A stretch of DNA of 34,525 nucleotides from Curvibacter lanceolatus ATCC 14669 (lineage in GTDB: Bacteria; Pseudomonadota; Gammaproteobacteria; Burkholderiales; Burkholderiaceae_C): positions 1 through 34,525 of the forward strand of contig NZ_KB906289.1 in NCBI RefSeq assembly GCF_000381265.1, read 5' to 3'. The notes beneath the pieces were generated by a model. It saw only the letters and a list, made by a program, of their open reading frames with translations. It made no database searches and was not told where the DNA came from. Positions 1,241-16,214 of the stretch are shown here, one piece after another (the first letter of the stretch is position 1; each line of letters opens with the position of its first letter). The position numbers were made by a program, and so were the translations under genes.

Positions 1241-1279
1241 CTCTTCTCTCCTTTCCCGGCATTCTCCGGGCTGAGCTAT

Positions 1280-2415: not shown

Positions 2416-3027
2416 GTGCAGGACCGGTACTTTTATGCGCCGCGCGAAGGGCATGGCTTGAAGCACAATCCCATCGCGTCCATCGTTGGGCCTCGGCCCA
2501 TCGGCTGGATCTCATCAATGAGCGAAGACGGCTCATTGAATCTTGCACCCTACAGCTTCTTTGGCATCTTCAATTACGCCCCCCCCATCGTGGCCTTTGC
2601 TAGCGCCGGGATCAAAGACACTCTTCGTAACGCGATACGACGGGGTGAGTTCGTCGTCAATGTGGTGACCGAATCCTTGGCGCAGGCCATGAATCTGAGC
2701 AGCAGCAGCATCGTCGGCAGCGAGTTCGAACTGACCCAACTGGGGAGCGCTCCATCAACACGGATAGCCACACCCCGCGTGGAAGCCTCACCGGTGTCAC
2801 TGGAATGCCAGGTGCTGGAAGACTTTCCGTTGCGCGACCACCAACATGAACCGGTGGGCAGCCACCTTCTTCTGGCAGAAGTGATCGGTGTGAGCATTGA
2901 CCGATCTCTGATTGTGGAAGGGGTGTTCAGTTGGGGACAGACCCGCACCGTGGTGCGAGCGGGTGGTGCGGCGGATTACCACTGGATAGGCGCCGACAAC
3001 CTGCTGCGCCTGCGACGTCCTGATTGA
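2416..3027 (+). CDS. Flavin reductase-like (FMN-binding split-barrel) protein
   Basis: This 203-residue protein belongs to the flavin reductase / DIM6-NTAB family. It shows IASIVGPRPIGWISS near the start, LAPYSFFGIFNYAPPIVAFAS, KDTLRNAIRRGEFVVNVV, and a late SHLLLAEVIGV strand, the order expected for this FMN-binding barrel. Such proteins reduce FMN for a monooxygenase or bind flavin in another role; the partner is not evident here. Translation appears to start at GTG five bases after the broken hydrolase gene, implying co-transcription, so its supply may depend on readthrough from the upstream IS. A strong terminator follows at 3080-3106. Confidence 0.88.
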   Translation: MQDRYFYAPREGHGLKHNPIASIVGPRPIGWISSMSEDGSLNLAPYSFFGIFNYAPPIVAFASAGIKDTLRNAIRRGEFVVNVVTESLAQAMNLSSSSIVGSEFELTQLGSAPSTRIATPRVEASPVSLECQVLEDFPLRDHQHEPVGSHLLLAEVIGVSIDRSLIVEGVFSWGQTRTVVRAGGAADYHWIGADNLLRLRRPD

Positions 3028-3121: not shown

Positions 3122-3847
3122 TCAACCCGCCAGCATGGCCGATTGAAAGCCGCGGGGATCACGCAACCAAGCCTCGTAGGCTTGCTGGGCTTCGCCCGGG
3201 TAAAGGTCTTCACACGAACCCGATAGAAAGTTGACGATCTCATCGGCCAGCACGCTAGGAGACATCTTCTCGCCAGCTTGGTCAGTACTCATGCGAGTGT
3301 CCACGGCCATGGGGTAGATGCCGCAAACCTTAACGCCCTGGGGTTTGAATTCGGCACGCAGCGCCAGATTCACTGCCTGGGCGGCGGCCTTGCTTGCGCA
3401 GTAGGTCGCCAGTGAGGGCAGTGAAACATGGGCCAGAAAGCTCAACACACTGGCCATCACACCGCCGCCCCGGGCCGCGAGCAGGGGACCAAATGCCAAA
3501 CCGACGTTGAGCAGGCCAAAGTAGTTGACCTCCATCTCGCGGCGTGCATTGAGGCGGGCTTCTGGCGCCAGAACCGATGCGTTGCTGTTGACGCCGGCAC
3601 AGTTCAGCACGAACGAAATATCTCGCTCACGTACCTGGTCCGCCAAGGCTTGGACGCTGTTCTGGTTGGTCATGTCCACGACTAGATTGAGCAAGGGCGT
3701 GCCGGGGAGCGTCAACTCGGACTGCGCGTGGGAGGCAGTGACCAACGAGGCCACACCAGCCAGGGCGAGTCGGTGCGCCAAGGCACCACCAATCCCTCCA
3801 GAGCCGCCCAGCAACAGCACATTCGCGCCTTTCAAGGAATGGGTCAT
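3122..3847 (-). CDS. Short-chain dehydrogenase/reductase
   Basis: This 241-residue classical SDR has the nucleotide-binding motif GGSGGIG (residues 14-20), NCAG (82-85), a catalytic Ser at about 133-136, and Y149CASK153. Enzymes of this size oxidise or reduce alcohols with NAD(P). Beside a Rieske oxygenase, an attractive role is dehydrogenation of a cis-dihydrodiol, but the substrate cannot be read from sequence. A strong Shine-Dalgarno sequence (GAGGAGGG) precedes the ATG. Its start overlaps the stop of a 24-codon open frame (3844-3918) in ATGA. It is divergent from the GntR gene and shares the operator at 3963-3981. Confidence 0.92.
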   Translation of the reverse strand: MTHSLKGANVLLLGGSGGIGGALAHRLALAGVASLVTASHAQSELTLPGTPLLNLVVDMTNQNSVQALADQVRERDISFVLNCAGVNSNASVLAPEARLNARREMEVNYFGLLNVGLAFGPLLAARGGGVMASVLSFLAHVSLPSLATYCASKAAAQAVNLALRAEFKPQGVKVCGIYPMAVDTRMSTDQAGEKMSPSVLADEIVNFLSGSCEDLYPGEAQQAYEAWLRDPRGFQSAMLAG

Positions 3848-3962: not shown

Positions 3963-3981
3963 AAAGTATACTGTATTTAGT
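3963..3981. promoter_or_regulatory. Putative GntR operator (SDR/regulator control region)
   Basis: The left half AAAGTATAC is perfect and the centre is T; the right half (GTATTTAGT) is degenerate. It matches the pattern AAAGTATACNGTATACTTT seen at five other sites in this window. It lies 66 bases before the GntR start, so autoregulation is plausible. Confidence 0.6.
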
Positions 3982-4047
3982 ATTTAAAAATGGAGGCCGA
4001 ACCATGGTTTCTGGCACAATAAGTGCCCCCGACAACGGCACCCTTTC

Positions 4048-4752
4048 ATGTCTACAGCACCCTTGAAGACCCCCTTTCTGATCGCGGGAGAGCTACCCAA
4101 GCAGAGCATCCGAGACCAGGTCTATGCGCTGTTACGCGATCGACTGCACAAAGGTGACATTTCGACCCAAGATCGCTTGGTCGACCACGAGTTGGCCGCC
4201 CAGCTCAACGTCTCCCGAATGCCTGTGCGTGAGGCGCTGTTGCAACTCAAGAACGAGGGCTACCTGGAGGGCACGTCGCGGGGCTTTATCCTTCCGCAGT
4301 TCACCCCGGAGGACATCGCTGAGATGTTTGAAGTGCGCCTGCTGCTTGAACCCGCCGCCGCCGCCATCGCCTGCCAGAACTCCAAGGTCGAGGGCTTAGG
4401 CAAGATGACCGTGGCTGTCGACAGCGCCGAGAAAGCCCACCTCAAGGCCGATGTGCTGGGCTACATGAGTGCCAACTGGGCGTTCTGGGTCGCTTGGATG
4501 GACATGGTGCCCAACCGCCGGCTGGCCCAGGTGATTTACCGCTTGCGCGACCACGCTCAAGTGGTGCGCCTTGCCACGCTGCAAGATACCGAATTCCGCG
4601 AGCTTTCGCTCCACCACACCAAAGAAATCCTGGCCGCTTTCGTCAAACGCGACACGGAGGCTGTGAAGGATCGTGTCGAACACAACTTGCGCATGTCTGC
4701 AGCGTCCTACTACGCCAAACAAGAAGCTCTAATTAGCGCCGAAGCCGCCTGA
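4048..4752 (+). CDS. GntR-family transcriptional regulator (FadR/FCD type)
   Basis: This 234-residue protein has an N-terminal winged helix (about residues 18-85, containing LAAQLNVSRMPVREALLQL) and a helical FCD effector domain (about 95-220). Regulators of this type are mostly repressors released by an aromatic or organic acid ligand. The FCD motif that usually reads D-x-x-FH here reads NWAFWVAW, so the histidine that normally helps bind a metal appears replaced by Trp; the later HHTKEI and EHNLR histidines remain. As the only regulator gene in the catabolic block it is the natural candidate to bind the six palindromes. The ATG start is directly preceded by non-coding sequence carrying one of them. 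Confidence 0.93.
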   Translation: MSTAPLKTPFLIAGELPKQSIRDQVYALLRDRLHKGDISTQDRLVDHELAAQLNVSRMPVREALLQLKNEGYLEGTSRGFILPQFTPEDIAEMFEVRLLLEPAAAAIACQNSKVEGLGKMTVAVDSAEKAHLKADVLGYMSANWAFWVAWMDMVPNRRLAQVIYRLRDHAQVVRLATLQDTEFRELSLHHTKEILAAFVKRDTEAVKDRVEHNLRMSAASYYAKQEALISAEAA

Positions 4753-4770
4753 GTGGTGTTTTCCGGTGCC

Positions 4771-4797
4771 AAAAACAGCCGCCAGATGGCTGGCGGC
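4771..4797 (-). terminator. Terminator of the oxygenase reductase gene
   Basis: A perfect 8-bp stem (GCCGCCAG / CTGGCGGC, 4778-4797, loop ATGG) is followed on the minus strand by TGTTTTT. It lies 22 bases past the end of the leftward reductase gene and may also shield it from the rightward GntR transcript. Confidence 0.75.
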
Positions 4798-4819
4798 AAA
4801 TCCGACTGACAGCGGTCGG

Positions 4820-5776
4820 TCAAAGGTCGATGCGCAAGCAGTCGTCTAGCGAACGCGAGCAGCAGGGAGTGAAAGACATAGCTCGGGTTTCGTCATCCAA
4901 GCATTGATCGCGGTGGTCAGGGCGACCCTCCAAAACATCGGTGATGCAAGTGCCACAAATGCCCTGCTCACAAGAAAACGGCAAGTCCACCCCCGCCGCC
5001 AACATGACTGCCATGGCGGTCTGATCAGGAGGCACCTCCAGGGTCAAACCGCTGCGCTCAAGCTTTAGAGTGAAGCGGCGCTCCGCAACAGCCACCGGAG
5101 CCGTGGCGCCAAAGCGCTCGGAGTGCAGCCGCGACTCGGCCCAGCCCTGAGCACGCGCAGCGTCCAGCGCGGCGTCAATGAAGCCTGTGGGACCACAAAC
5201 ATACAGGTGCGCCCCCGCCGGCGCCGATGCTATGGTCTGAGCCAGGTCGAGGCGCCGATTGGCCGCCCCGTCATCAAAATACAAATGGCTTGAACTCGCC
5301 AGGGACGACGAGGTCAGCGTCTCGTGGAAGGCACAGCGGTCATGCGACCGTGTCGCGTAATGCAGCGACCAACTTCTCCCCTGCGCTTGCAGGTAACGCG
5401 CCATCGACAACACAGGAGTGATGCCAATGCCGCCAGCGAACAGCAGGGCATGGGGAGCCTCTGAGTCAAGCGGAAACAGGTTGTTTGGCCCCTGGGCAGA
5501 AACCAGATCACCCACAGCCAACTGCTCGTGCACTACACGCGAACCGCCCCGTGATCGCGGGTCCAGGTTGATCGCCAGTTGGTAACGGTGCCGCTCAGCT
5601 GGGTCATTGCACAGGGAATAGGCACGAGACAGCCCTCCAGGCAGATTCAGCAACAGGTGGGCACCGGCCGTGAAAGGTGGCAACTCGCGACCGTCCGGCG
5701 CGGTCAACTCAAGCAGAACGATGCCTTCTGCAATCGATTGCTTTTTGGCGAGTCGGAGAGACACACAGGTGTTCAT
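4820..5776 (-). CDS. Oxygenase reductase (FMN/NAD domain plus C-terminal [2Fe-2S])
   Basis: This 318-residue protein has the domain order of phthalate dioxygenase reductase and VanB. A flavin-binding barrel with RAYSLCND comes first (about residues 50-57), then a pyridine-nucleotide domain with GGIGITP and YVCGPTGF. A plant-type ferredoxin domain ends it, with ligands C269, C274, C277 and C305 or C306. It passes electrons from NAD(P)H to a Rieske oxygenase. It is divergent from the Rieske alpha gene across 65 bases with a shared operator, and no separate ferredoxin gene is visible, so a two-component oxygenase is the likely arrangement. Combining this reductase class with an alpha/beta oxygenase is less common than with alpha-only enzymes. 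Confidence 0.92.
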   Translation of the reverse strand: MNTCVSLRLAKKQSIAEGIVLLELTAPDGRELPPFTAGAHLLLNLPGGLSRAYSLCNDPAERHRYQLAINLDPRSRGGSRVVHEQLAVGDLVSAQGPNNLFPLDSEAPHALLFAGGIGITPVLSMARYLQAQGRSWSLHYATRSHDRCAFHETLTSSSLASSSHLYFDDGAANRRLDLAQTIASAPAGAHLYVCGPTGFIDAALDAARAQGWAESRLHSERFGATAPVAVAERRFTLKLERSGLTLEVPPDQTAMAVMLAAGVDLPFSCEQGICGTCITDVLEGRPDHRDQCLDDETRAMSFTPCCSRSLDDCLRIDL

Positions 5777-5797
5777 AACTCTGAATTCCTTTAATTA

Positions 5798-5816
5798 AAA
5801 GGATACAGTATACTGT
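5798..5816. promoter_or_regulatory. Putative GntR operator (reductase/oxygenase control region)
   Basis: The site reads AAAGGATACAGTATACTGT, differing from AAAGTATACNGTATACTTT at two positions, and contains the perfect palindrome ACAGTATACTGT (5805-5816). It includes a -10-like TATACT on both strands and lies 21 bases before one start and 25 before the other, so bound protein could block both promoters. Confidence 0.75.
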
Positions 5817-5841
5817 TTGGACAATTTTCTTCGAGGATCCC

Positions 5842-7161
5842 ATGAGCCATCGATCTCCGCATACGCCTTCGACCTTGGTCGAGGCCGACCGCGTCCACCG
5901 GGACGCCTACCTGTCCGAAGCCGTTTTTGAGCAGGAGCAGCGCCGCTTCTTTGCAGCGACTTGGAACTTCGTTGCCCACGCCAGCCAAGTCCCCCATCCG
6001 GGCGACTACATCACCCTTGACCTGGCTGGTCGGCCACTGCTGGTGGTGCGTCAATCAGATCAGTCGATCCAAGTGTTCTACAACCGCTGCGCCCACAAAG
6101 GCTCCAAGCTCTACACCAATGAACGCGGCAATGCGGGGCGAGTGCTCCAGTGCGCCTACCACGCATGGAGCTACCGCCTCGATGGCAAGCTGATGGGCAT
6201 CCCTCTGCGCCAGGAGTACGCGGAGTCGCGTCTATCTCAATGCCCCTCGGGCCAGGGTCTGACCCACGTCGGCGCCACCCAGGTGTACCGGGACTTTGTG
6301 TTTGTGCGCCTCGATGAACGAGGCGTTGACTTTGAGGACTACTTCGGCGCGTCGCTGCAATGGCTGGACAACATGGCCGACCGCTCCCCGGTTGGCAAGC
6401 TCGAAGTCTTTGGTGGCGTGATCCGCAACGTCATCCGCTGCAACTGGAAGATGTACTTTGAAAACATCAACGACACAGTTCACCCGGTGTCCACCCATGA
6501 ATCAGCAGGCAAAGCGGCCAAAGCCGTATGGGGTCAGCAATCCGAATCCACCCCCATGCCAATCTCAGTTGAGCAAATGCTGCCATTCGCGTCCGGCTAT
6601 GACTTCTTTACCCAACTGGATGCAGAGGTCTACCCCAACGGACACAGTGCTCTGGCCGTGAAGTTCAGCACCCATACCGGCTACGCCTACCCGCAAGACT
6701 ACCTCGATGCCCTGGCTCAGGCGCACGGCAAAGCCCGCGCCGAGGATGTCCTGAGTCGAGCTCCTCAAAACTCTGTCCTGTTCCCCAGCATCGCGGTCAA
6801 GGGCGCCCCGTTGGTGATGCGGGTAATTCGCCCGCTTTCAGTGGATCGCATGTTGATTGAAGCCTGGAGCTTCCGCGCCCTCGGTGCACCCGACCTGCTG
6901 CACGAGCGCGCGATGACCTACAACCGGCTCGTGTTCTCACCCATGTCTATCGTGGCCCACGACGACATTCACCTGTTTGAGAGCGTCCAGCAAGGTCTGA
7001 AGGCCGAAGGCAACGAATGGGTCAGCCTGCATCGTGGTGCCACAGGTGAAGCCGAGGCTGTGAGCGGTACCACCCCCTGCAAAGGCACCAGCGAGATGCT
7101 GATGCGCAATCAATTTCAAGCCTGGGCCAAGTTCATGGCCGAAACACCGGAGGCCACCTGA
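5842..7161 (+). CDS. Rieske aromatic-ring-hydroxylating oxygenase, alpha subunit
   Basis: This 439-residue protein is the catalytic subunit of a Rieske non-haem iron oxygenase. The Rieske [2Fe-2S] ligands are C83, H85, C104 and H107 (CAH...CAYH). The mononuclear iron ligands are probably H214 and H219 in NDTVHPVSTH, with D211 as the bridging Asp and D374 or D375 as the third ligand. The enzyme adds oxygen to an aromatic ring; the substrate is not readable. Given the gentisate genes nearby, a reaction leading toward gentisate (for example 5-hydroxylation of a salicylate-type acid) is an inference only. It is overlapped by the beta gene (TGATG) and shares an operator with the divergent reductase. 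Confidence 0.94.
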   Translation: MSHRSPHTPSTLVEADRVHRDAYLSEAVFEQEQRRFFAATWNFVAHASQVPHPGDYITLDLAGRPLLVVRQSDQSIQVFYNRCAHKGSKLYTNERGNAGRVLQCAYHAWSYRLDGKLMGIPLRQEYAESRLSQCPSGQGLTHVGATQVYRDFVFVRLDERGVDFEDYFGASLQWLDNMADRSPVGKLEVFGGVIRNVIRCNWKMYFENINDTVHPVSTHESAGKAAKAVWGQQSESTPMPISVEQMLPFASGYDFFTQLDAEVYPNGHSALAVKFSTHTGYAYPQDYLDALAQAHGKARAEDVLSRAPQNSVLFPSIAVKGAPLVMRVIRPLSVDRMLIEAWSFRALGAPDLLHERAMTYNRLVFSPMSIVAHDDIHLFESVQQGLKAEGNEWVSLHRGATGEAEAVSGTTPCKGTSEMLMRNQFQAWAKFMAETPEAT

Positions 7162-7643
7162 TGACTCACAGCAACCCCATGATGGCCGCGCAGCAGTTCG
7201 TCGTTGACGAGGCACGCTTGCTCAACGAGGCCCGTTACCGAGAGTGGATTGAGCTCTTCGCCGCCGATGGCCACTATTGGGTACCCATGCAAGGCGCCCA
7301 ACAACCCGATCCAGTGAACCATGTGTCACTGGCGTACGAGGACCGCATTCTGCTGGCAACCCGCGTGCAACGATTGCAGGGACTGCGGGCACATTCACTG
7401 GAGCCGGGCGCACGCAGCTTGCATATCCTGCAAGCACCCGAGGCGCAACCGCTGGAGGGCATTGGCTGGGAGGTGTACACCCCCTTCATCTACACCGAGA
7501 TCCGTGGCGCCCTGCCCACAACCTTGGCGGGTGTCTGGCGCCACCAACTGCGCGCCAGAGAACAAGGCTTTGAAATAGTGCTCAAACGGGTTGACCTGCT
7601 GAACGCGACCGCCCCCCACGAAATGATCCAGCTGTTCCCATGA
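7161..7643 (+). CDS. Ring-hydroxylating oxygenase, beta subunit
   Basis: This 160-residue protein has the size and pattern of small oxygenase subunits (SnoaL/NTF2-like fold): QQFVVDEARLLNEARYREWIELFAADGHYWVP at the N-terminus and a C-terminal FEIVLKRVDLLN strand. The subunit is structural and forms alpha3beta3 complexes in this family. The start overlaps the alpha stop and the stop overlaps the next start, so the three genes are translationally coupled. Confidence 0.93.
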   Translation: MTHSNPMMAAQQFVVDEARLLNEARYREWIELFAADGHYWVPMQGAQQPDPVNHVSLAYEDRILLATRVQRLQGLRAHSLEPGARSLHILQAPEAQPLEGIGWEVYTPFIYTEIRGALPTTLAGVWRHQLRAREQGFEIVLKRVDLLNATAPHEMIQLFP

Positions 7644-8185
7644 GAGCCCGCATGAGCCAACCTCTGCGGCCACTTCACAAGCGCCTGGCATTTGATCTAT
7701 CCGAGGGGCAGGTCCTCGATGGCCCGAGGCGCTATCTCATCATGCGGGCGGATGTGCTGATGGGCGCATTCGCCAAACTGGAGGCAGAACCCCGACGCCT
7801 GGCACTGCAGGCGATAGGAGCGTCGGTGACCGACCACGGCTCCGACAGCGTGAGAGCGTACCTGGCCGAAGTGGGCGCAGATGCGCTGCTCGAAACCATG
7901 GTCGCCGCTTCGGCTTCGCTGGGCTGGGGCGTTTGGTCGTTCAGGCGCTTGTCAGACCAGCTTTGGCTTGAAGTGCGCAACAGCCCGTTTGCCGCAGGCA
8001 CCCCCACCAGCCTTGAACCGGTCTGTACCCCAATCATTGGCATGCTGCGGGCCGTCGCGCAAGCGCTTTGGTCCGAGCCTGCCGACGTGGTCGAGTGGGT
8101 CTGCGCTTGCCAGGGTCAGGCTGGCATGGAGGGGGTGTGCCGCTTCCAGGCTCGCCCTCGCCTGCCCAAGATCCCCTCAAACTGA
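7640..8185 (+). CDS. Stand-alone V4R-like (XylR_N/4-vinyl reductase type) domain protein
   Basis: This 181-residue protein has no recognisable enzyme motif. Its C-terminal half resembles the V4R domain that senses aromatics in XylR/DmpR/MopR regulators. C129, E152, C155 and C167 are placed much like the zinc ligands of MopR: the C-to-E distance (23) and E-to-C distance (3) are identical, while the last gap is four longer. There is no AAA+ domain and no DNA-binding domain. It overlaps the beta gene in ATGA, so it is part of the oxygenase operon. It could be a ligand carrier, assembly factor or sensor partner. Met5 is an alternative start. The ISL3 element begins 39 bases after its stop and does not truncate it. 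Confidence 0.7.
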   Translation: MRARMSQPLRPLHKRLAFDLSEGQVLDGPRRYLIMRADVLMGAFAKLEAEPRRLALQAIGASVTDHGSDSVRAYLAEVGADALLETMVAASASLGWGVWSFRRLSDQLWLEVRNSPFAAGTPTSLEPVCTPIIGMLRAVAQALWSEPADVVEWVCACQGQAGMEGVCRFQARPRLPKIPSN

Positions 8186-8216
8186 CGCGACTCTTTTGAG
8201 CTTGCCCTGCGCAGGT

Positions 8217-8224
8217 AAAAAAAA
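8217..8224 (+). repeat. Target-site duplication of ISL3 element, left copy (A8)
   Basis: Eight A immediately precede the left inverted repeat; an identical A8 follows the right one at 9542-9549. Eight bases is the usual duplication length for ISL3 elements. The homopolymer makes chance agreement somewhat easier. Confidence 0.75.
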
Positions 8225-8246
8225 GGTTCTTCACGCATCTCCGGGG
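8225..8246 (+). repeat. Left inverted repeat of ISL3 element
   Basis: It starts GGTTCTTCACG and ends CCGGGG. The transposase stop codon lies within it. Confidence 0.88.
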
Positions 8247-9433
8247 AATGCTGCCTTGATCTTGAGGAAGAAGTACTCAACGTCACGGTAGCCATAAGCC
8301 ATGCGCTTGATGACCTTGATGCGGTTGTTGATCCCTTCGAGTTGGCCCGTGTGCATGGGCCAACGCACCCGCGCCAGAATGCCCGGCCAGTATTTGCGCA
8401 GCCGCTTGGCAAACAATTGCAGGCACTCGATGCCGCTTTGCGCGCAGTGCTCCAGCCACTGCTTCCAGCGTCGTCGCCACTGCCAGGGATCACAAGCAGT
8501 CCACAGACTCTTGAGGGATTGCTTGAGTACGTAGACCGTCATGAGCGCCTCGTTGGCCTCAAGCACCTCCTGCAACGTCACCTGCTCGCGCCCCTTGAGC
8601 TTGTCTGCATTGCGCAGCAACAACCAGTGGGCTTGTTTGACCACTCGCCGCGCGGGCTTGTCCTTGCGCAGGGCGTTGGCCGTGTCCACCCGCACGCGTG
8701 AGATCACCTCCCGGCCATACTTGGCGATGACATGGAACAGGTCATAGACTATGCGAGCCTGGGCACACCAATGCCGCACCTCCAGGTCAAAGGCCGTGTT
8801 CATGTCCATGGCGACGGCCTGAATGCGCCTGCAGCCTGCTTCTCCCAATGCCGCAAAGAAGGGGCGGACCGCTTCGCGACTGCGATCCTTGGCGATGTAC
8901 AGCTCCCGGCGCGTATTCGCATCCAGGATGACGCTGGCATAGCGATGCCCTTTGTGCAGGGCGAACTCATCCATCACCAGGCGCGTCGGATGGGGCTGAG
9001 GCAACTGGCTCATCAAGCCCATCAGGCTGCGCTTGTCCAATTGCTGCACAGTGGACCAATGCAGGCTAAACATTTGAGCAACATGCTTGATGGGCAAACG
9101 CTTGCAGCACTGGGCCACGGTTTGCGCCATGGCTCGCGTCATGCGGGCAAAGCGATCAAGCCAGCTCACATGCTGCAGGCAGTGTCCGCAGCGCGTGCAG
9201 TTCACTCGCAGCAGCTGCACTTGCAGTGTCAGGACTCTGCCCGCCAAGGGTAGCTCACGCACGTTGCGCGTGACTCGCTCGTGCACTGAGTTGACGAGAC
9301 CCAGGCATTGCCCGCAGCGCAGGGGTAGCTTGGCCAGCGGCTCCAGTCGTAACCATGCACTTTCGTGGGTGATGCGGGAGTCGGTGACGTGAAAGCCGGG
9401 CCACAGGTCCAGCCAGCCTGTATTCTTATGCAT
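8231..9433 (-). CDS. ISL3-family transposase
   Basis: This 400-residue transposase has the N-terminal zinc-binding region of the family (CGQCLGLV and CTRCGHC), a helix-turn-helix (LPIKHVAQMFSLHWSTVQQ), and the DDE core: Asp in VMDEFALHKGH, Asp in AVAMDMNTAF, and Glu in GQLEGINNRIKVIKR. Length and motifs are complete. The stop codon lies only 6 bases inside the element's left end. A start at 9433 leaves about 100 bases to the right end, room for its promoter. Confidence 0.95.
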   Translation of the reverse strand: MHKNTGWLDLWPGFHVTDSRITHESAWLRLEPLAKLPLRCGQCLGLVNSVHERVTRNVRELPLAGRVLTLQVQLLRVNCTRCGHCLQHVSWLDRFARMTRAMAQTVAQCCKRLPIKHVAQMFSLHWSTVQQLDKRSLMGLMSQLPQPHPTRLVMDEFALHKGHRYASVILDANTRRELYIAKDRSREAVRPFFAALGEAGCRRIQAVAMDMNTAFDLEVRHWCAQARIVYDLFHVIAKYGREVISRVRVDTANALRKDKPARRVVKQAHWLLLRNADKLKGREQVTLQEVLEANEALMTVYVLKQSLKSLWTACDPWQWRRRWKQWLEHCAQSGIECLQLFAKRLRKYWPGILARVRWPMHTGQLEGINNRIKVIKRMAYGYRDVEYFFLKIKAAFPGDA

Positions 9434-9519
9434 GCAGCGGTGCTCTAAAGTTTGATGATTGGTCGCACAACCATCTTGCTTGAGATGTCACCGCTGTTTT
9501 TTTGTCCGTGGGGGGACTA

Positions 9520-9541
9520 CCCCGCGAATACGTGAAGAACC
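9520..9541 (-). repeat. Right inverted repeat of ISL3 element
   Basis: Read on the minus strand it starts GGTTCTTCACG and ends GCGGGG, matching 8225-8246 at 18 of 22 positions. Confidence 0.88.
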
Positions 9542-9576
9542 AAAAAAAAGCAGATTTGCATACCGCAAATCTGCTT
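9542..9576 (-). terminator. Terminator of the gentisate operon, beside the IS target site
   Basis: On the minus strand a perfect stem (GCAGATTTGC / GCAAATCTGC, 9550-9574, extended by two A-T pairs, loop of five) is followed directly by eight T (9549-9542). These eight T are the right copy of the IS target duplication, so the terminator is preserved in spite of the insertion. It lies about 30 bases past the end of the Bug receptor gene. Confidence 0.9.
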
Positions 9577-9606
9577 CGTGTCCTCAGGCGCCGTAGCACA
9601 GGCACA

Positions 9607-10575
9607 TTAGTCGACGGTTACCCCCGTATCCACGACCAGTGGACGATAGCGCAGCGTCTCTGCCTCGATATATGCCTGGAACTTAGCAGGGGTCATCGGC
9701 GCACGACTGTACCCAAAATCGGCATAGCGCTTCCAGACGGCCGGCTGGGTAAGGACTTTCTCGATCGCCGTATGTAGCTTATTAACGATGGCCGGGTCCG
9801 TCCCCTTCTTGACTGAAGCGCCAATCCACAGGTCCATCTTCAAGTTTGCGAACCCCAGCTCGGCGAAGGTCGGTACATTTGGTAGGAACTCGGTGCGCTG
9901 CGCAGACGCCACAGCCAAAGGAAGACCCTTGTTGCTGCGGACCATATTGAGGGTACCCGGAACAGCATCAAACAGCAGATCAATTTCGTTCGACATGATC
10001 GCTTGAAAGGCCGGAGGAGCCCCTTTATAGGGCACGTGTACGAATTTACTGCCCGGCATCGCCTTGCCCAGCGCGTGCCCCAGGATATGGGGTGCAGTGC
10101 CTGGCCCAAACGATCCGTAGTTAAGCTCCCTGCCCAACTTAACAGCATCTTTGAGAGCGTCAAAAGACTTCAAATTGCCGCTACTGCTGCTGTACATGAC
10201 CATTGGAGCTTGGGCCAACATGGTGATGTTATCGAAGTCTCGCATCGGCAAGTAGCTGATGCTTTTGTAGATCATCGGGTTGATCACATAAGTACCGATC
10301 TCCGCCACAAACAGCGTATAGCCATCCGACGGCGCACCAAGCACAGTTGCCGCACCAATCTGTCCGCCGCCGCCGGGTCGGTTATCAACAACGATGGGCT
10401 GGCCCAACTCAGTAGCCAACTCGGGCCCCATGGTGCGCACAAAAGTATCGACGGCCCCACCAGGAGGAAAGGGAATGATGACTTTGATTGGCTTGCTGGG
10501 GTAGGGATCTTTGGCCGCAGCGACAAGGGTGGCGGCACTGAGTGTGACAACAACGAAGGATTTGAGGAGGGTCAT
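9607..10575 (-). CDS. Bug/TctC-family periplasmic substrate-binding protein
   Basis: This 322-residue protein has a Sec signal peptide (SFVVVTLSAATLVAAA) and the typical tripartite tricarboxylate receptor pattern: YPSKPIKVIIPFPPGGAVDTFVR, VVDNRPGGGGQIGA, SDGYTLF, VPYKGAPPAFQAIMSNEIDLLFD, and LPNVPTFAELG. Such proteins capture carboxylates in the periplasm. No TctA or TctB membrane gene is nearby, so it may use a partner elsewhere or act as a sensor, both known for the family. As last gene of the gentisate operon it presumably binds the aromatic acid or nitrile substrate. Confidence 0.93.
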   Translation of the reverse strand: MTLLKSFVVVTLSAATLVAAAKDPYPSKPIKVIIPFPPGGAVDTFVRTMGPELATELGQPIVVDNRPGGGGQIGAATVLGAPSDGYTLFVAEIGTYVINPMIYKSISYLPMRDFDNITMLAQAPMVMYSSSSGNLKSFDALKDAVKLGRELNYGSFGPGTAPHILGHALGKAMPGSKFVHVPYKGAPPAFQAIMSNEIDLLFDAVPGTLNMVRSNKGLPLAVASAQRTEFLPNVPTFAELGFANLKMDLWIGASVKKGTDPAIVNKLHTAIEKVLTQPAVWKRYADFGYSRAPMTPAKFQAYIEAETLRYRPLVVDTGVTVD

Positions 10576-10637
10576 TGTTTTAGCTCGGGTGTGGATTGTT
10601 TTGTTTAACTGAACTTCAGGGCATGCATCAAACAGAG

Positions 10638-11393
10638 TCAGTACCGTCCGCTCAGCAAAGAGCCAGCGTTCGGGACAATGGTTTCAAGACCCAGTTCCTT
10701 CAAGGTCATATAGGTAGTGCAAACGGCGGCGGACACCACCGGAATGCCCACCTCAGCTTCGACCTGTGCAATGACGGGGAGAGATGGCATCTGTACACAG
10801 GCGGACAGCACCAGGGCGTCGGCCCCCCGGAGATCGAGTCGCTTGTAAAGCTCTAGAAGCTTCTGCGGATCGTGCCGACCCACTTCAAGGTTGTCGGGGA
10901 TCTCGAGCGCCAAGAAGTCAAGCACCTCAAAACCTTCGGCTGCCAAGTAGTCCACAACCAGCTGCGTCAGCGGTTTGAGGTAGGGGCATAGCACCACGAT
11001 GCGCTTGGCACCAAGGGCTTGCAGGCCTTCGACCAAGGCCCCTGCGCTGGTCACGACCGGGGCCGGCGCGCCGTTGTCGATGGTCCGCTGGTGCAGGCGC
11101 ATCTCGGACTGGCGGTGGTAGCCAAGACCCATGCTCATGATGGCAACCAGACAGGCATAGCCCAGTACGTCGACGTGGGCATCACTGAGCTCCAGGGCAC
11201 AGCGGTCGCTGTCGCGATCCATTGCTTCGAGCTCTTCCTTAACAACTTTCTTCATGCGCATGCGACTTGAATGAAAGGTGAAGCGCTCGGGGCGGATGGA
11301 CTGACGAGACCACAGCATTGCAGGGATCTCCGTTTCCATAGTGGTGTTCGAAGACGGGACGATTTGCCCGATTCGATACAAGGTCTTCGTCAT
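10638..11393 (-). CDS. maiA: Maleate cis-trans isomerase
   Basis: This 251-residue member of the Asp/Glu racemase superfamily opens with YRIGQIVPSSNTTMETEIPAM, a pattern I associate with maleate isomerase. The two active-site cysteines are C81 (GYACLVAIM) and C199 (SACVQMPS), at the positions expected for NicE/MaiA enzymes. It converts maleate to fumarate. In this operon it would process maleate released by direct hydrolysis of maleylpyruvate, replacing the more usual isomerisation before hydrolysis. Its ATG overlaps the nitrilase stop in ATGA. An arylmalonate decarboxylase is a less likely alternative. Confidence 0.85.
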   Translation of the reverse strand: MTKTLYRIGQIVPSSNTTMETEIPAMLWSRQSIRPERFTFHSSRMRMKKVVKEELEAMDRDSDRCALELSDAHVDVLGYACLVAIMSMGLGYHRQSEMRLHQRTIDNGAPAPVVTSAGALVEGLQALGAKRIVVLCPYLKPLTQLVVDYLAAEGFEVLDFLALEIPDNLEVGRHDPQKLLELYKRLDLRGADALVLSACVQMPSLPVIAQVEAEVGIPVVSAAVCTTYMTLKELGLETIVPNAGSLLSGRY

Positions 11394-12424
11394 GTTTTCT
11401 CTCCGGTGGGCAAATCAAAGTCCTGCGGGCCGTCCAGCAGGTCGGGCAGTGCTGTGCTGTCGTCATCCTGAAAGGTTGCGGGGCGCAGGCTGCGGCGGTT
11501 GACACGCAGGTCAAACACATCAAAGCGGTTGTAATGACCGGTGATGTCATGCATCTGCCGCGGCTGGATACAGCGCGACAGGTCGATGTCGGCATACAAG
11601 ATGCCCTCGGTGTCGATCAGGGGCTCACCGACCAAACGACCGTCTGGCCCGATCACACCCGAGAAGGCGCTGTTCCTGCGGGCCAACAGTGCCGCAGCGC
11701 CGGGAAACGCATGTTCCATCATGTCGATGGTTTCTTGCGACAGCGTTGAGCACGACACCACGGTGTAGACCTTGCCTTCGAACGAATGCGCCATGGCACG
11801 GGTTTTGATTGCTTCGGCCATGTCGTAATCGGGCGGCGCCACGGGCAAAGAGATATAGCTGGCCAGGTGCACCAACTCGCCCTGAGCCAGGAGCGAGAAG
11901 CGCGCCAGCGTGTTGGTGTTTTCACCGCAGGCCAGCATGCCAATCGGACCGAGCTCGGTAGCGTGCACTCGCAGACCGGCGCCATCGCCTGGCGCCCAGG
12001 TCAGCTTTTCAGCCCAGGTCGGCACCAACTTGCGATGGCGGCCAAGCAGTTGACCCTGCGGCCCGATGAACATCATGGTGTTGTAGACCGTGGCCACCGA
12101 ACCAGCGGCCAGCTCGTTGATGCCCAGGGCCACGTATACCCCGGCGTCTCGCGCTGCATGGGCCACACGCGCCATCTCGGGGCCCGGCACCTGTATGGCG
12201 GACTCACAGAGCTTCTGGAACCAGGGACTGCCAGCCACGGGGTTACCGACCCAGCTCCAGTAGGGGTAGGCCGAGACGAAGACCTCCGGAAACACCACCA
12301 GTCTGGCACCCTGGCCAGCGGCCTCAGCGATCAGGCGACACACCTTGTCGATGGTGGCCGGCGTGTTCAGGAAGACGGGACTGGCCTGAACCGCCGCTAC
12401 CTTGAAGCGCGGTAGTTTGATCAT
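11390..12424 (-). CDS. Nitrilase (true nitrilase branch)
   Basis: With the start at 12424 the protein has 344 residues and the catalytic triad E47 (FPEVFVSAYPYW), K132 (HRKLVPTWAEK) and C166 (GMLACGENTNTLARF). The CGENTN context is that of enzymes hydrolysing nitriles to acids and ammonia rather than of amidases. An upstream in-frame codon at 12451 exists, but AGGAAGGAG sits about 8 bases before 12424 and the earlier start would run into the hydrolase gene. In the gentisate operon it may convert an aromatic nitrile to the matching benzoic acid; the substrate is unknown. Confidence 0.92.
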   Translation of the reverse strand: MIKLPRFKVAAVQASPVFLNTPATIDKVCRLIAEAAGQGARLVVFPEVFVSAYPYWSWVGNPVAGSPWFQKLCESAIQVPGPEMARVAHAARDAGVYVALGINELAAGSVATVYNTMMFIGPQGQLLGRHRKLVPTWAEKLTWAPGDGAGLRVHATELGPIGMLACGENTNTLARFSLLAQGELVHLASYISLPVAPPDYDMAEAIKTRAMAHSFEGKVYTVVSCSTLSQETIDMMEHAFPGAAALLARRNSAFSGVIGPDGRLVGEPLIDTEGILYADIDLSRCIQPRQMHDITGHYNRFDVFDLRVNRRSLRPATFQDDDSTALPDLLDGPQDFDLPTGEKT

Positions 12425-12440
12425 GTTGGGATCTCCTTCC

Positions 12441-13352
12441 TCAGACGGCAATGACCGGATGGGTCAATTGGCCAATCTGAGCCACATGGGCCACTACGGT
12501 GTCGCCGGGGTGCAGCCACTCTTGCGGGCTGCGACCAGCGCCCACCCCTTCAGGCGTGCCGGTGGCAATGATGTCGCCCGGCTCCAGCGTGATGCCGGCG
12601 CTGATGTCGGCCACCAATTCATTCACCTTGAACAGCATGTGGCGAGTGTTGGAGCTTTGTTTAATCTCGCCGTTGACGGTGAGCCAGAGGTCCAGGGTCT
12701 GGGGGTCCGGAATCTCATCAGCGGTGACGATGCAAGGGCCAAAGGGGCCGTAGCTGTCTTGGCCCTTGGAGTAGATCCATTGGCCCGCGCGACGGCAGTC
12801 GCGGGCGCTGATGTCGATCATCACGCTGTAGCCAAAGACGTAGTCCAGTGCATCTTCCGCGGTCACAGCTACGGCGCGGCGGCCAATGATCGCGGCCAGT
12901 TCAACTTCCCAGTCCATCTGCTGGGTGATCTTGGCGTTATGGCGAATGGGCTCGCCAGGGCCAATCACCGTGGTTGGCGGCTTGGAAAAGATGACGGGCT
13001 GCTTGGGCAAGTCCTTCGAAGTGTCGAGCGTGCGGCTGGACTCGGCGACATGCTCCACATAGTTCAAGCCGATCCCGAAGATGTTCTTACGCGGGCGAGG
13101 GATCGGGGCCAGCAGGTGGACGTTGGTCGCCGGCACCGAAGTCCCAGGCAGCCAGTTGCCGGCAGCGGAATCGAGCAGGGCTTGCAGCTGACGGACTGCG
13201 CAGGGCCCCAGGTCAATGAAGGCCAGCATGGAAGCCGGCAGCTCGACCCCTTGGCTCGCGCCAAAGCGCTGCACATCAACAATGTTATCGCCTTGGATGA
13301 CGCCAAGTCGTGCGGCGTCTTCAATGGTGTGGCGGTAGGTTACGAGGCGCAT
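12441..13352 (-). CDS. FAH-family hydrolase (maleylpyruvate/fumarylpyruvate hydrolase)
   Basis: This 303-residue protein has the fumarylacetoacetate hydrolase fold. The metal ligands are E149 and E151 (DWEVELAAIIG) and D180 (MIDISARD), with FGIGLNYVEH and the loop WIYSKGQDSYGPFGP also present. It cleaves a ring-fission acylpyruvate. Because a maleate isomerase but no maleylpyruvate isomerase is encoded here, I infer direct hydrolysis of maleylpyruvate to maleate and pyruvate, but sequence alone does not separate the cis and trans substrates. It sits 36 bases after the dioxygenase gene. Confidence 0.9.
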   Translation of the reverse strand: MRLVTYRHTIEDAARLGVIQGDNIVDVQRFGASQGVELPASMLAFIDLGPCAVRQLQALLDSAAGNWLPGTSVPATNVHLLAPIPRPRKNIFGIGLNYVEHVAESSRTLDTSKDLPKQPVIFSKPPTTVIGPGEPIRHNAKITQQMDWEVELAAIIGRRAVAVTAEDALDYVFGYSVMIDISARDCRRAGQWIYSKGQDSYGPFGPCIVTADEIPDPQTLDLWLTVNGEIKQSSNTRHMLFKVNELVADISAGITLEPGDIIATGTPEGVGAGRSPQEWLHPGDTVVAHVAQIGQLTHPVIAV

Positions 13353-13388
13353 GGTTTCTCCGTGTGGGTTGGCTTGGTGGATGTAGAG

Positions 13389-14522
13389 TTAAATTGGTGC
13401 AGGGGCTTGACGGCCGCCATTTGTCTTCAGCCCCTCTTCTCGATACAGGCCCAGGGCCTTCATCACAGGCAGGTCACTGAAGCAGAACAGGCAGGAGTCT
13501 TCGCTCGCTTGTGTGTTGACGTGCTCATGCCAAGCCCAAGATGGAACACAGAAGATGTCGCGTTCACGCCAATCAAAGCGGCGGCCATTGATAACGGAAT
13601 AGCCCTCACCTTTGGCCACTTGGTAGAGGAAACTGCCGGTGTGGCGATGGGCCTTGGTTTGCTCTCCGGGACGCAGCAGCTGCATGCTTGCGCCGATGGT
13701 GGGCATCACGGACCCACCGGTGACCGGGTTGGTGTAGTGCATCAAGATGCCATCGAACTCAGAGCCCTTACTCACCTTGGTCAATCGCCTCAGCGCGTCG
13801 TAAGTGGGCGCCCACTCGTACTTGAACAGAGGCGAGTACGGTTTGCTCCAAGCTTGGCCGTGAGGCAACAAGGCCGAGGCGCCCCAGGTATGGGTTGCGT
13901 CATCGATGGGATAAGCGACCTGCTGGTGTAGGTCAGGGTGCACCTCGTAGAAATTGGCCTCCATCGCGTTGACGAAGGGGATGTCCAATCCGTCTTGCCA
14001 AATGCATGGGGTGCCCCCCTCGTCCACCCCATGCTCATGCCACGTACCGTTGGGCGTGAGCACAAAGTCGTTGGCGCCCAAGGTCATCTTGTGTCCATCA
14101 ACGATGGTGTAAGCACCACTACCTTCCATGATGAAGCGCAGCGCTGAAGCGGAGTGCCGATGAGTCGAAGCACATTCGCCGGGGTGCATGACTTGCAGCC
14201 CTGAGTAAAGCCAACCGACCGCGGCGGACACATCTTGTCGCCCAGGGTTATTCAGATAGATGACTCGGCGCCCTGCCTTCTCAGGTGTGACCAGCGCGAC
14301 AGAGCGAAGCACGTGGTCACGCAGTTCTCGGTAGCGCCAAAGTGTGGGGACTGACTCGGACTTCGGCTCCCAGGGTTCGATCTTGTTCGCCACCGTCCAC
14401 AAAGCGCCAGCGTCGTAGCGTTCCAGATCGCGGTAGTAGCTGACTAACTCCGGGGTGTCTTCGACGTTGGCACGTCCGACAACGTCTTCGCGGTAGGTGT
14501 CGTAGCTCGATTTCTCAGTCAT
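13389..14522 (-). CDS. Gentisate 1,2-dioxygenase
   Basis: This 377-residue bicupin shows H121-H123 and H162/H164 in the first cupin (HRHSASALRF, WHEHG), and H292-H294 and H332/H334 in the second (HRHTGSFLY, WHEHV). ALRFIMEGSGAYTIVDG is typical of gentisate dioxygenases. The enzyme uses Fe(II) to cleave gentisate between the carboxyl- and hydroxyl-bearing carbons, giving maleylpyruvate. The start was placed at 14522 because AAGGAG lies 8 bases upstream. An earlier in-frame ATG at 14588 would put the operator inside the gene. It is first in a five-gene leftward operon. 1-Hydroxy-2-naphthoate dioxygenase is the main alternative. Confidence 0.93.
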   Translation of the reverse strand: MTEKSSYDTYREDVVGRANVEDTPELVSYYRDLERYDAGALWTVANKIEPWEPKSESVPTLWRYRELRDHVLRSVALVTPEKAGRRVIYLNNPGRQDVSAAVGWLYSGLQVMHPGECASTHRHSASALRFIMEGSGAYTIVDGHKMTLGANDFVLTPNGTWHEHGVDEGGTPCIWQDGLDIPFVNAMEANFYEVHPDLHQQVAYPIDDATHTWGASALLPHGQAWSKPYSPLFKYEWAPTYDALRRLTKVSKGSEFDGILMHYTNPVTGGSVMPTIGASMQLLRPGEQTKAHRHTGSFLYQVAKGEGYSVINGRRFDWRERDIFCVPSWAWHEHVNTQASEDSCLFCFSDLPVMKALGLYREEGLKTNGGRQAPAPI

Positions 14523-14565
14523 CAGTACTCCTTGCAGTAGTCGGCTCACGCCAAAAATTAAAATA

Positions 14566-14584
14566 AAAGTATACCGTATACTTT
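14566..14584. promoter_or_regulatory. Perfect 19-bp palindromic operator upstream of the gentisate operon
   Basis: AAAGTATACCGTATACTTT is a perfect palindrome around a single central base and is the best copy of the motif. It lies 43 bases before the dioxygenase ATG, where it would overlap the promoter. Confidence 0.82.
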
Positions 14585-14653
14585 GCAAAGCTTCGTACTT
14601 TTGACAAAGATCATCAGTTCATCACACGAGGCGAAAACCTCAAAAAATAGGAT

Positions 14654-14672
14654 TCGATATACCGAATACTTT
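14654..14672. promoter_or_regulatory. Partial operator copy between gentisate operon and porin
   Basis: TCGATATACCGAATACTTT agrees with the perfect site at 14 of 19 positions. It lies 88 bases from the perfect copy (centre to centre), about eight helical turns, so looping between the two is possible. Confidence 0.5.
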
Positions 14673-14939
14673 TAGATCGAAGCAAATATTGGGCCCAAAA
14701 TTCAAGATCACATTGGAAATCAACTGCCCCATACGGGAGTACCTCGTCAGCGAGGCCATACAGACGCGTCAGACCAGCAAGCTCACCAGCCTTGCCACGA
14801 TCTCTTGCTTATCGCCTCAAATTGGGGCATTCAGCCATCACACCCCAACCAACTCACGCCCGAGTCAACACCCGAATGGGCAACCTCCGCCCAATGAGCC
14901 CAGAGGAACGCAAGTTCAGCAACACCGCACAAAAGTTAT

Positions 14940-14958
14940 TTTGTATACAGTATTCATT
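14940..14958. promoter_or_regulatory. Operator copy upstream of the porin
   Basis: The core GTATACAGTATTC (14943-14955) matches the consensus except for one base in the right half-site. The flanking A/T bases are poorly conserved. Confidence 0.55.
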
Positions 14959-15060
14959 TTTATCAAAGAGACAACATCAATGACCAAGATCGCCCATAGA
15001 GCATCAAAGTGGTGCATTGATTTTTGTCAGTCCAGCATCAAATCACACATAAAATCATCA

Positions 15061-15079
15061 ACAACATACAGTATACTTT
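15061..15079. promoter_or_regulatory. Operator copy adjacent to the porin start
   Basis: The right half GTATACTTT is perfect and the left half ends in ATAC. It lies 46 bases before the proposed TTG start, a position comparable to that of the site before the gentisate dioxygenase gene. Confidence 0.62.
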
Positions 15080-15125: not shown

Positions 15126-16214
15126 TTGAAAGTGCAATCCCTCCGGTCAGCGGCCCTGCCGTCGCTAGCTCTGTCACTGATTTGCAGCAGCGCCTGCGCT
15201 CAAAGCAATGTCACCCTCTATGGCATCTTGGACATTGGCATGTCCCACGCGAGTGACGTGGGTGGCGGTAGCCAAAACCTTGTCGACAGCGGCGTGATGC
15301 AAGGCAGCCGACTCGGCTTCAAGGGCGCCGAAGATTTGGGTGGTGGCTTGTCGGCTTTATTTGTTCTGGAGCAAGGCCTGGTACTGAACTCCGGGGCCCT
15401 GGGCCAGGGTGGGCTGGCCTTTGGCCGCCAAAGCTGGGTGGGCCTGTCGGACCGCAGTCTCGGCACCCTGAGCCTGGGACGACAATACGACTTCATGTGG
15501 GACTCGCTGGTACCGTTCACCAATGCCACCTTGCTCGGCGGCGGCTACGTGAACAACCCGCTCGACAACGACCGCACCGCAGGTCAACGCCTGAATAATT
15601 CCATCAAGTACACCAGCCCCAAGTGGAGCGGCTTCTCCTTCGGCGCCATGTTCGCCCCCTCGCAAACCCCTGGGACGTCGCAGGGCTCGAGCCCATCGCG
15701 CAGCGTCGGTGCCAACTACACCCAAGGCAACCTGAGCTTGGGTACGGCATACACCCAAGTCGATGGTGCGACCCTCAATGTGCAATCGCTAGTGGGCTCC
15801 AGTCAGGCCTACACTCTCGGCGGGAAGCGTAACAGTGTGGCCGGTATGGGTGGTAGCTACCGCCTCAATGAGCAGTTCCTGCTGCACGGAATGGTCACCC
15901 GGTCCGAATTCGAGGGCAACACCAGCAGCGCCAATGGAACGTTCAAGAACTACTTTGGCGGCGTCGTTTATCAGCCGACGTCGTTCTGGAAGCTCGGGGT
16001 GGACCTGAACAACACCAAGCTGCTGAATGCAAGCTACAAGCAAGTGGCCTTGACAGCGGACTACCGCCTGTCCAAGCGCACCGACGTCTATGCGCAGGTA
16101 GTCACGCAGCGAGCCGATGGTGCCGCTAATGCCAAGGCCAATATATTCATCCTGGGCGGCGCCTCAGGGCGAGACCAAAGCGTTGTGCGGTTTGGCCTGA
16201 GGCACTCATTCTGA
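15126..16214 (+). CDS. Gram-negative porin (general/aromatic-acid uptake)
   Basis: This 362-residue outer-membrane barrel begins with a signal peptide (SLRSAALPSLALSLICSSACA) followed by QSNVTLYGILDIGM, the typical start of Burkholderiales porins. It shows GSRLGFKGAEDLGGGL and ends in RHSF with the terminal Phe needed for barrel assembly. I chose a TTG start at 15126 because AAGGAG lies seven bases before it; no ATG gives a sensible signal peptide. Position and operators suggest it admits the substrate of the catabolic genes. A strong terminator follows. Confidence 0.92.
   Translation: MKVQSLRSAALPSLALSLICSSACAQSNVTLYGILDIGMSHASDVGGGSQNLVDSGVMQGSRLGFKGAEDLGGGLSALFVLEQGLVLNSGALGQGGLAFGRQSWVGLSDRSLGTLSLGRQYDFMWDSLVPFTNATLLGGGYVNNPLDNDRTAGQRLNNSIKYTSPKWSGFSFGAMFAPSQTPGTSQGSSPSRSVGANYTQGNLSLGTAYTQVDGATLNVQSLVGSSQAYTLGGKRNSVAGMGGSYRLNEQFLLHGMVTRSEFEGNTSSANGTFKNYFGGVVYQPTSFWKLGVDLNNTKLLNASYKQVALTADYRLSKRTDVYAQVVTQRADGAANAKANIFILGGASGRDQSVVRFGLRHSF

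Follow-up and report, generated by a model that had tools for sequence, protein, structure and literature searches.

A predicted GntR regulon with seven candidate operators in a catabolic island of Curvibacter lanceolatus

Palindromic sites and the regulator gene among them

The first 34,525 nucleotides of contig NZ_KB906289.1 from Curvibacter lanceolatus ATCC 14669 (assembly GCF_000381265.1), here called the window, carry a catabolic island in which genes for a short-chain dehydrogenase/reductase (SDR), a GntR-type regulator, a Rieske oxygenase with its reductase, a gentisate-dioxygenase-like enzyme and a porin flank three divergent spacers. A first-pass annotation made from the letters alone had described six copies of a 19-bp palindrome in these spacers, and all six are present (3963, 5798, 14566, 14654, 14940 and 15061). 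The part common to them is a 13-bp core, GTATACNGTATAC, and the full 19-mer form occurs at one site only; the outer AAA/TTT of the 19-mer are weak, and the information sits in the core. The sites and the regulator are listed below, each site with its mismatches to the 19-mer (18 specified bases) and to the core, in this order, and with the number of its 19 bases kept in Curvibacter sp. HBC61.

3966–3978: candidate operator core GTATACTGTATTT in the SDR/GntR spacer, 69 bp before the GntR gene and 118 bp before the SDR gene; mismatches 4 and 2; 18/19 kept (3963–3981)
5801–5813: candidate operator core GGATACAGTATAC within the reductase/oxygenase spacer of 65 bp, at 24 and 28 bp from its two flanking gene starts; mismatches 2 and 1; 19/19 kept
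14569–14581: candidate operator core GTATACCGTATAC, perfect, 46 bp before the dioxygenase start; mismatches 0 and 0; 16/19 kept
14657–14669: candidate operator core ATATACCGAATAC, weak, 134 bp before the dioxygenase start; mismatches 5 and 2; 14/19 kept
14943–14955: candidate operator core GTATACAGTATTC, about 170 bp before the porin start; mismatches 5 and 1; 14/19 kept
15064–15076: candidate operator core ACATACAGTATAC, about 49 bp before the porin start; mismatches 3 and 2; 17/19 kept
4048–4752, plus strand: GntR regulator of 234 amino acids with a winged helix-turn-helix (wHTH) and an FCD domain (PF00392, 54.7 bits; PF07729, 66.0 bits), the proposed binder

All six sites are intergenic once the gene starts are set by homology, and their described location in three divergent non-coding regions then holds. 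For the dioxygenase, the listing of open reading frames gives a TTG at 14588, which would place 14566–14584 inside the gene; in HBC61 the gene starts at an ATG whose counterpart here is 14522. The porin start was taken as the TTG at 15126, which is conserved in HBC61 and stands behind AAGGAG. With these starts, the nearest site lies 22–69 bp from the start codon of each gene, the SDR gene excepted (118 bp).

The regulator falls into the GntR superfamily by its PF00392 match (cut-off 27 bits) and into the FadR/VanR (FCD) subfamily by its PF07729 match (cut-off 24.3 bits). The best AlphaFold2 model (pLDDT 80.7, the other four reaching 64.2–66.5, from an alignment of only 4 sequences) has seven helices from residue 87 onwards, in keeping with a C-terminal domain of six to seven helices; its nearest fold is McbR (4p9f), with VanR-group structures, including Atu1419, among the next best. 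Twelve of the named NCBIfam GntR equivalogs (PhnR, NanR, LldR, PdhR, UxuR and others) gave a match and none reached its cut-off, the best being phnR_burk (78.3 bits vs. 271.5), while the NanR model gave 39.8 bits vs. 260. At E≤1e-15, the genome itself holds only two other GntR matches, each 30% identical. The usual metal-binding residues of FCD domains are D..FH. At the aligned positions, the window protein reads N..FW, and its counterparts in two loci with related oxygenases (L015 and L016) read N..FR or G..FR, a hint of a changed ligand site. A second GntR gene, whose product is 41% identical to the window protein, lies in L016 (4092–4889) beyond the oxygenase genes of this contig of an Alcaligenaceae metagenome-assembled genome.

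Distribution of the motif within and beyond the genome

At up to two mismatches, the 13-mer occurs at 13 places in the 6,832,523-base genome, six of them in the 34,525-base window. Thus 6/13 places fall into 0.5% of the genome (hypergeometric tail 2.8e-11), or 7/13 with a further site on contig C20. The motif read backwards, which served as control, is commoner (25 genome places vs. 13), so the signal lies in the clustering rather than in the genome total. The 19-mer at up to three mismatches has three matches, compared with none in each of 100 dinucleotide-preserving shuffles. The seven places outside the window comprise four inside long reading frames (contigs C3, C4, C12 and C18), one on C29 before an EamA transporter gene, one on C1 before a MarR-type gene, and C20:107940. 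The place on C1 (C1:223962, locus L004) reads GTAAACAGTATAT and scores 17.5 bits by the matrix described below, level with the true sites; it may be an eighth member of the regulon or the MarR-type gene's own operator. An Rfam scan of the window gave no match.

The site C20:107940 lies outside the window, and an AMP-dependent CoA ligase gene starts 22 bp downstream of it. In HBC61 (locus L014), the ligase gene is preceded by ATATACAATATAC, and ligase and thiolase genes stand upstream of the island genes in one cluster, which continues with dienelactone-hydrolase, flavin-reductase, SDR, GntR, reductase, oxygenase and V4R genes and then with TctC, isomerase, nitrilase-family, fumarylacetoacetate-hydrolase (FAH), dioxygenase and porin genes. 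Contig C20 carries the ligase and thiolase genes and the beginning of the hydrolase gene (about 49 codons), followed by an IS3 copy; its last 1306 bases (L024 5129–6434) are identical to window positions 1–1306, after which the hydrolase sequence resumes. Given the place of the ligase gene in the HBC61 cluster and the one IS3 copy at both contig ends, the seventh site was counted in the island. On the simplest reading, C20 and the window contig would be neighbours and the hydrolase gene split by IS3; alternatively, the repeat may have caused a misjoin. The six copies of the first-pass annotation thus stand, but their number was one short.

Comparison with HBC61, whose GntR protein is 97% identical to that of the window, reveals a footprint over the sites. 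Of the 114 bases in the six 19-bp sites, 98 are identical in HBC61, compared with 418 of 757 in the rest of the three spacers. The dioxygenase/porin spacer is the most drifted, with 48% identity outside the sites, and four random 19-mers from it matched the observed site identity in 1 of 20,000 draws. In the HBC61 locus itself, seven places match the motif at up to two mismatches (shuffle mean 0.01).

More distant relatives of the regulator were sought in samples of 200 genomes of the family and 399 of the order, with some of the candidates per genome scored. The 11 relatives considered are all matches at E≤1e-28 apart from the genome's own gene, which was dropped; they are 34–40% identical and were read in loci of 2.7–3.7 kb. 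Eight of these 11 loci contain the motif at up to two mismatches, always upstream of gntR, and in seven of the eight a site ends 57–101 bp before the first aligned codon. L070 carries two exact copies, 474 and 721 bp before the first aligned gntR codon. Among weaker relatives (E 8.9e-25 to 7.1e-16), 2/27 loci have the motif, one of them being the next-ranked L075 (Fisher p 1.3e-4 for 8/11 vs. 2/27). This set was obtained from 33 rows by removing three without a locus, the genome's own L018, L068, which was counted already, and L074; the last (97%) was taken as the HBC61 gene since its contig number and coordinates equal those of L014. When 369 genomes of the class were searched for GntR, no genome other than this one yielded a relative at E≤1e-28. 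Thirteen related catabolic loci with no detectable GntR homologue hold a single motif place in 228,114 bases. This background goes back to 26 listed non-own loci; wider surroundings were read for 13 places, in 14 stretches, and L053 was dropped because it carries a GntR homologue. L015, which combines a 71% identical GntR with a related oxygenase, has GTATACTGGATAC, one mismatch from the motif, between its SDR and gntR genes. In L020, L068 and L071, which contain distant GntR relatives and the motif, a thiolase gene (Pfam Thiolase_N and Thiolase_C) follows directly, which suggests a picture as if this GntR clade often governed CoA-thiolytic routes.

When a matrix is built solely on 13 sites beside GntR genes elsewhere, the six sites take the top six ranks within the window, and omission of L015 and L016 does not alter this. 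The sites score 13.4–21.8 bits, and the best non-overlapping place in the window 9.4 bits. Taken together, the motif beside GntR relatives, the footprint in HBC61 and the presence of only two other, 30% identical GntR proteins in the genome make a predicted GntR regulon covering the island, as first proposed, well supported, with one site more than had been given.

Several observations weigh against this reading. HBC61 appears to belong to the same genus, so that the footprinting hangs on a single close comparison, and its counterparts of the perfect site at 14566 and of the site at 14940 have two and three core mismatches, respectively. The count in L015 at up to three mismatches is at chance level (82 of 200 shuffles equal it), and this locus lends support by the one-mismatch quality of its site and by its place only; L016 (52% identical GntR, related oxygenase) has weaker sites with two and three mismatches (9 of 200 shuffles equal). 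Three of the 11 close relatives (L066, L067 and L021) have no site, L066 and L067 being the best-scoring distant ones. The motif is likewise missing from L022 and L023 (44% identity), the two fetched of six plasmid records with a GntR relative, and L053, an oxygenase cluster whose 41% identical GntR is the L067 gene, has one two-mismatch place about 5 kb from that gene. The genome searches, moreover, are samples with partial candidate scoring. As for the matrix, its sites were chosen for likeness to the motif, which makes the ranking partly circular and supportive rather than independent. Its best place in the 228 kb of other loci reaches 12.7 bits, and among 500 column-permuted matrices the best puts 5/6 sites above 13 bits (mean 0.016). 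The first-pass worry that a matrix might hit many unrelated promoters is allayed by the mismatch count, in which seven of the 13 places lie in the cluster, four in reading frames, one before the MarR-type and one before the EamA gene; by matrix it persists in part, as the places on C1 (17.5 bits), C29 (14.5) and C3 (14.2) exceed the weakest site (13.4), that on C1 exceeding two of the six.

Mode of action and shape of the operator

The sites are predicted operators of the island's FCD-type GntR protein (4048–4752), which very probably acts on them, most likely as a repressor released by a substrate or intermediate of the pathway. The sites, their grouping, their conservation relative to HBC61 and the presence of the motif beside close relatives of this GntR are shown, whereas contact of the protein with the DNA, its repressing rather than activating role and its ligand are inferred. 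A GntR dimer, or several, would read ATAC-N-GTAT within the full core and thereby repress the promoters until a pathway substrate or early intermediate is bound, upon which the protein would leave the DNA. The site between the SDR gene and gntR, together with the sites before gntR in the relatives, points to autoregulation. In the middle of the 65-bp spacer, one site would serve both the reductase and the oxygenase genes; its distances of 24 and 28 bp from the two starts are expected of one operator serving a divergon, in accordance with the placement rule of a single operator for both sides (PMC4494728). The four sites of the dioxygenase/porin spacer could be understood as one near each start and one more distant on each side, and the C20 site would control the CoA ligase and thiolase genes. 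In this way, the ligase, SDR, reductase, oxygenase, ring-cleavage and porin blocks may all come under one switch. Looping of the DNA within the dioxygenase/porin spacer, from one site to another, conceivable in view of the loops formed by Atu1419 (PMC7797058), was considered and set aside. The suggestion of gentisate and salicylate as ligands follows from the lower pathway only, and the oxygenase is IadD-like.

With regard to its shape, the predicted operator is inside-out for its family. In an alignment of 27 sites, the dyad is ATAC-N-GTAT with AC-N-GT at the centre, and GT and AC stand nine nucleotides apart on the outside. The FadR-type consensus has GT and AC 2–3 nucleotides apart about the centre in most, though not all, members, and the survey of Suvorova et al. 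2015 names NanR, BioR and FarR as exceptions (PMC4494728). This usual arrangement is absent here, a GT-N2-AC word being present only within each half (GTATAC); the "GT...AC ends" of the first-pass annotation are therefore loosely true at the outside, whereas the centre differs from the GT-N2/3-AC of the family. As most but not all members follow the rule, the odd operator leaves the protein in the FCD subfamily.

Each half of the core being GT-N2-AC, the same regulator might instead use GTATAC as its unit, so that the 13-mer would represent two units 7 bp apart, sometimes with a third phased box, and several dimers would bind alongside. This arrangement has precedents in Atu1419, a protein that recognises ATGTATACAT palindromes and keeps genes in a cluster for aromatic catabolism repressed (PMC7797058) and that is, with another VanR-group protein, among the nearest folds of the window GntR, and in the three NanR dimers on (GGTATA)3 (PMC8012715). 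Of 79 offsets scored for their resemblance to GTATAC, the two in phase, −7 and +14, come 2nd and 1st over the 27 sites, and 1st and 2nd over the 20 sites without HBC61. The test for a third box was, however, conceived after the sites were seen, and in subsets the ranks shift (+14 8th and −7 1st for the seven own-genome sites; −7 4th and +14 1st for the 13 distant sites). Moreover, with both strands read, the inner ATAC positions agree in 51–52 of 54 cells, whereas the outer G and T do so in 43 and 37; such unevenness within each half is better explained by a single dyad at the central base, and arrayed GTATAC units are hence a possible but doubtful alternative. That only one GTATAC half matters was considered too and set aside, since the mismatches of the two-mismatch sites, judged by eye, are not confined to one half.

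How the regulator acts, and whether it is the one that acts, can be weighed against other explanations. Some of these promoters could be activated by GntR, or be under its mixed control, as the two remote sites in the dioxygenase/porin spacer, 134 bp and about 170 bp before the respective genes, would allow. The proposal that repression works by covering the −10 element found no backing, which also leaves room for activation: a sigma-70 scan of the three spacers picked up a single promoter-like pair, in one spacer (shuffle mean there 1.1), and none in the other two, so that no promoter can be placed, overlap with −10/−35 elements is unsupported and −10 covering remains a guess. A terminator scan of the three spacers revealed nothing above chance. 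Activators, however, usually sit farther from the start codon than the 22–69 bp of the nearest sites, and such short distances suit a repressor. Repression is also proposed here because the FCD relatives Atu1419 (PMC7797058) and NanR (PMC8012715) are repressors, and an activating role is accordingly unlikely.

Very unlikely is ownership of the sites by another regulator of the cell, with the GntR gene as a coincidental neighbour. While the genome has a few further copies of the motif, one of them (C1:223962) in front of a MarR-type gene, the motif tracks close GntR relatives into other genomes, where it lies upstream of their genes. The two other GntR proteins of the genome are 30% relatives, a range in which 2/27 loci have the motif, and LexA-type boxes (CTGT-N8-ACAG at one mismatch) are at chance level in the window (13 vs. 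a mean of 13.9), with none at the six sites. Finally, the spacers are AT-richer (GC 0.34–0.47), and promoter DNA of this kind could resemble a palindrome by chance; in view of the shuffles, none of which gave a match, the conservation in HBC61 and the motif beside GntR relatives, this explanation has next to nothing in its favour.

The predicted regulon, with one regulator, seven predicted operators and most blocks of a catabolic island, is testable as a whole. The motif may be used to find the same GntR clade in other genomes, and the GntR switch could serve as a sensor for the pathway substrate. The dyad, if confirmed, would depart from the operator rule that this very large regulator family usually follows.

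Island enzymes and related systems

The other features of the island in the window are as follows.

39–1240, minus strand: IS3-family insertion with two frames, also at the end of C20 and identical there over 1306 bases
1306–2410, plus strand: 3′ part of a dienelactone-hydrolase/SnoaL gene, split by IS3; domains read from the HBC61 copy
2416–3027, plus strand: flavin-reductase-like protein (PF01613)
3122–3847, minus strand: short-chain dehydrogenase/reductase (PF00106)
4820–5776, minus strand: oxygenase reductase with FAD/NAD domains and 2Fe-2S (PF00970, PF00175, PF00111)
5842–7161, plus strand: Rieske oxygenase alpha subunit, IadD-like (480 bits to 7yls_B, 476 to 9o71)
7161–7643, plus strand: Rieske oxygenase beta subunit (PF00866)
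7640–8185, plus strand: stand-alone V4R-domain protein (PF02830, 33.7 bits, cut-off 31)
8231–9433, minus strand: ISL3 transposase (PF01610), between the V4R and TctC genes
9607–10575, minus strand: TctC-type periplasmic binding protein (PF03401)
10638–11393, minus strand: maleate cis-trans isomerase-like protein (322.6 bits to 4fq7_A)
11390–12424, minus strand: nitrilase-superfamily hydrolase (PF00795; nearest solved chains are nitrilases)
12441–13352, minus strand: fumarylacetoacetate-hydrolase-family hydrolase (PF01557)
13389–14522, minus strand: gentisate-1,2-dioxygenase-like enzyme (570 bits to 3bu7)
15126–16214, plus strand: outer-membrane porin (PF13609)

Both insertions are missing from the corresponding places in HBC61, where the dienelactone-hydrolase/SnoaL fusion gene is unbroken and only about 80 bp take the place of the ISL3 transposase (L014). 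To the right of the porin gene (16539–19761) follow RadC, DUF932 and YqaJ-type genes, which resemble accessory genes of mobile elements; with such neighbours, the island may be mobile. Relatives of the V4R protein share loci with GntR relatives in L015, L016 and L023.

With an IadD-like oxygenase, a reductase, a CoA ligase and a thiolase, the latter two on C20, the island contains the gene set of iad loci; ligase and thiolase were matched to their HBC61 copies and to Pfam, not to Variovorax proteins. The dioxygenase matches a solved chain named gentisate 1,2-dioxygenase (3bu7) and scores below the NCBIfam gentisate_1_2 equivalog cut-off (328.4 vs. 442.1 bits) as well as below that of the 5-aminosalicylate 1,2-dioxygenase MabB (272.1 vs. 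650 bits). Judged by this enzyme set, the substrate would be a ring-hydroxylated, nitrogen-bearing aromatic acid, a matter of chemistry and not a result. The iad-type upper genes would feed a lower route of gentisate-dioxygenase-like and maleate-isomerase-like enzymes, in which ring opening of 5-hydroxyanthranilate would give a maleamyl product that proceeds via maleamate and maleate to fumarate. The linked enzymes suggest a route that connects auxin-type chemistry with maleate and fumarate as its end. Clusters of this kind are not generally under a GntR switch: among the 13 other related-oxygenase places with neighbourhoods examined, tblastn detected a GntR homologue at one (L053) and at none of the remaining 12; no MarR model matched among 10 window proteins and the cluster proteins scanned. 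On a tentative and more speculative view, an FCD GntR clade might read ATAC-N-GTAT plus boxes phased at 7 bp as a dimer array, replace MarR in this island and govern an iad-type route from a ring-hydroxylated indole-acetate-like compound, through ring opening by the gentisate-dioxygenase-like enzyme, to a maleamyl-type product and, by amide hydrolysis and maleate isomerisation, to fumarate.

In searches of the open-licence literature, which did not cover RegPrecise, no description of this operator or of a GntR-controlled iad cluster was found, which is weak evidence of absence; the same searches gave no description of a cluster with the proposed lower route, and nothing judged relevant on 5-hydroxyindole and gentisate. 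The string ATACAGTAT occurs once in PMC13343189 and GTATAC once in PMC11998424, and ATACTGTAT of PMC4576408 is a LexA motif.

Among regulators, the FadR-type (FCD) GntR proteins share with the window protein the wHTH with a helical C-terminal domain, an AT-rich palindrome and extra half-sites near it, and differ in having GT-N2/3-AC about the centre where the island has AC-N-GT (PMC4494728). Atu1419 of Agrobacterium fabrum, from the VanR group, is alike in its FCD fold and GTATAC word; it too has several operators, set in a cluster for aromatic catabolism, and a site in its own divergent promoter region. Its operator, however, is one ATGTATACAT 10-mer (PMC7797058), whereas the island has two GTATAC-like halves round a free base, and the structural alignments show 21–23% identity to the window GntR. 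NanR of E. coli is likewise a GntR repressor of the FadR subfamily that uses close-set units containing TATA, but these are direct repeats, GGTATA x3 (PMC8012715).

Regarding the enzymes, a close system is the iad indole-3-acetate locus of Variovorax. It shares with the island an IadD-like oxygenase, a reductase, a CoA ligase and a thiolase; 9O71 is IadDE of Variovorax, which acts as a monooxygenase, and IadF and IadG are annotated as acyl-CoA synthase and ketothiolase (PMC12633357), the same kinds as in the island. The described iad loci have MarR regulators (PMC9613470, PMC11630574) in place of the island's GntR, and the word GntR is absent from the main texts of PMC9613470, PMC12633357 and PMC11630574. 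The island further adds a lower route of gentisate-dioxygenase-like, FAH-type, nitrilase-family and maleate-isomerase-like enzymes. For this part, the mab 3-aminobenzoate cluster of Comamonas sp. QT12 offers a parallel, with an amino-substituted aromatic acid as substrate, the ring-cleaving MabB, to whose NCBIfam model the island dioxygenase has a match, and a downstream hydrolase; it differs in that the island dioxygenase reaches 272 bits against the MabB cut-off of 650, and the available text names no IadD-like oxygenase (PMC9584955).

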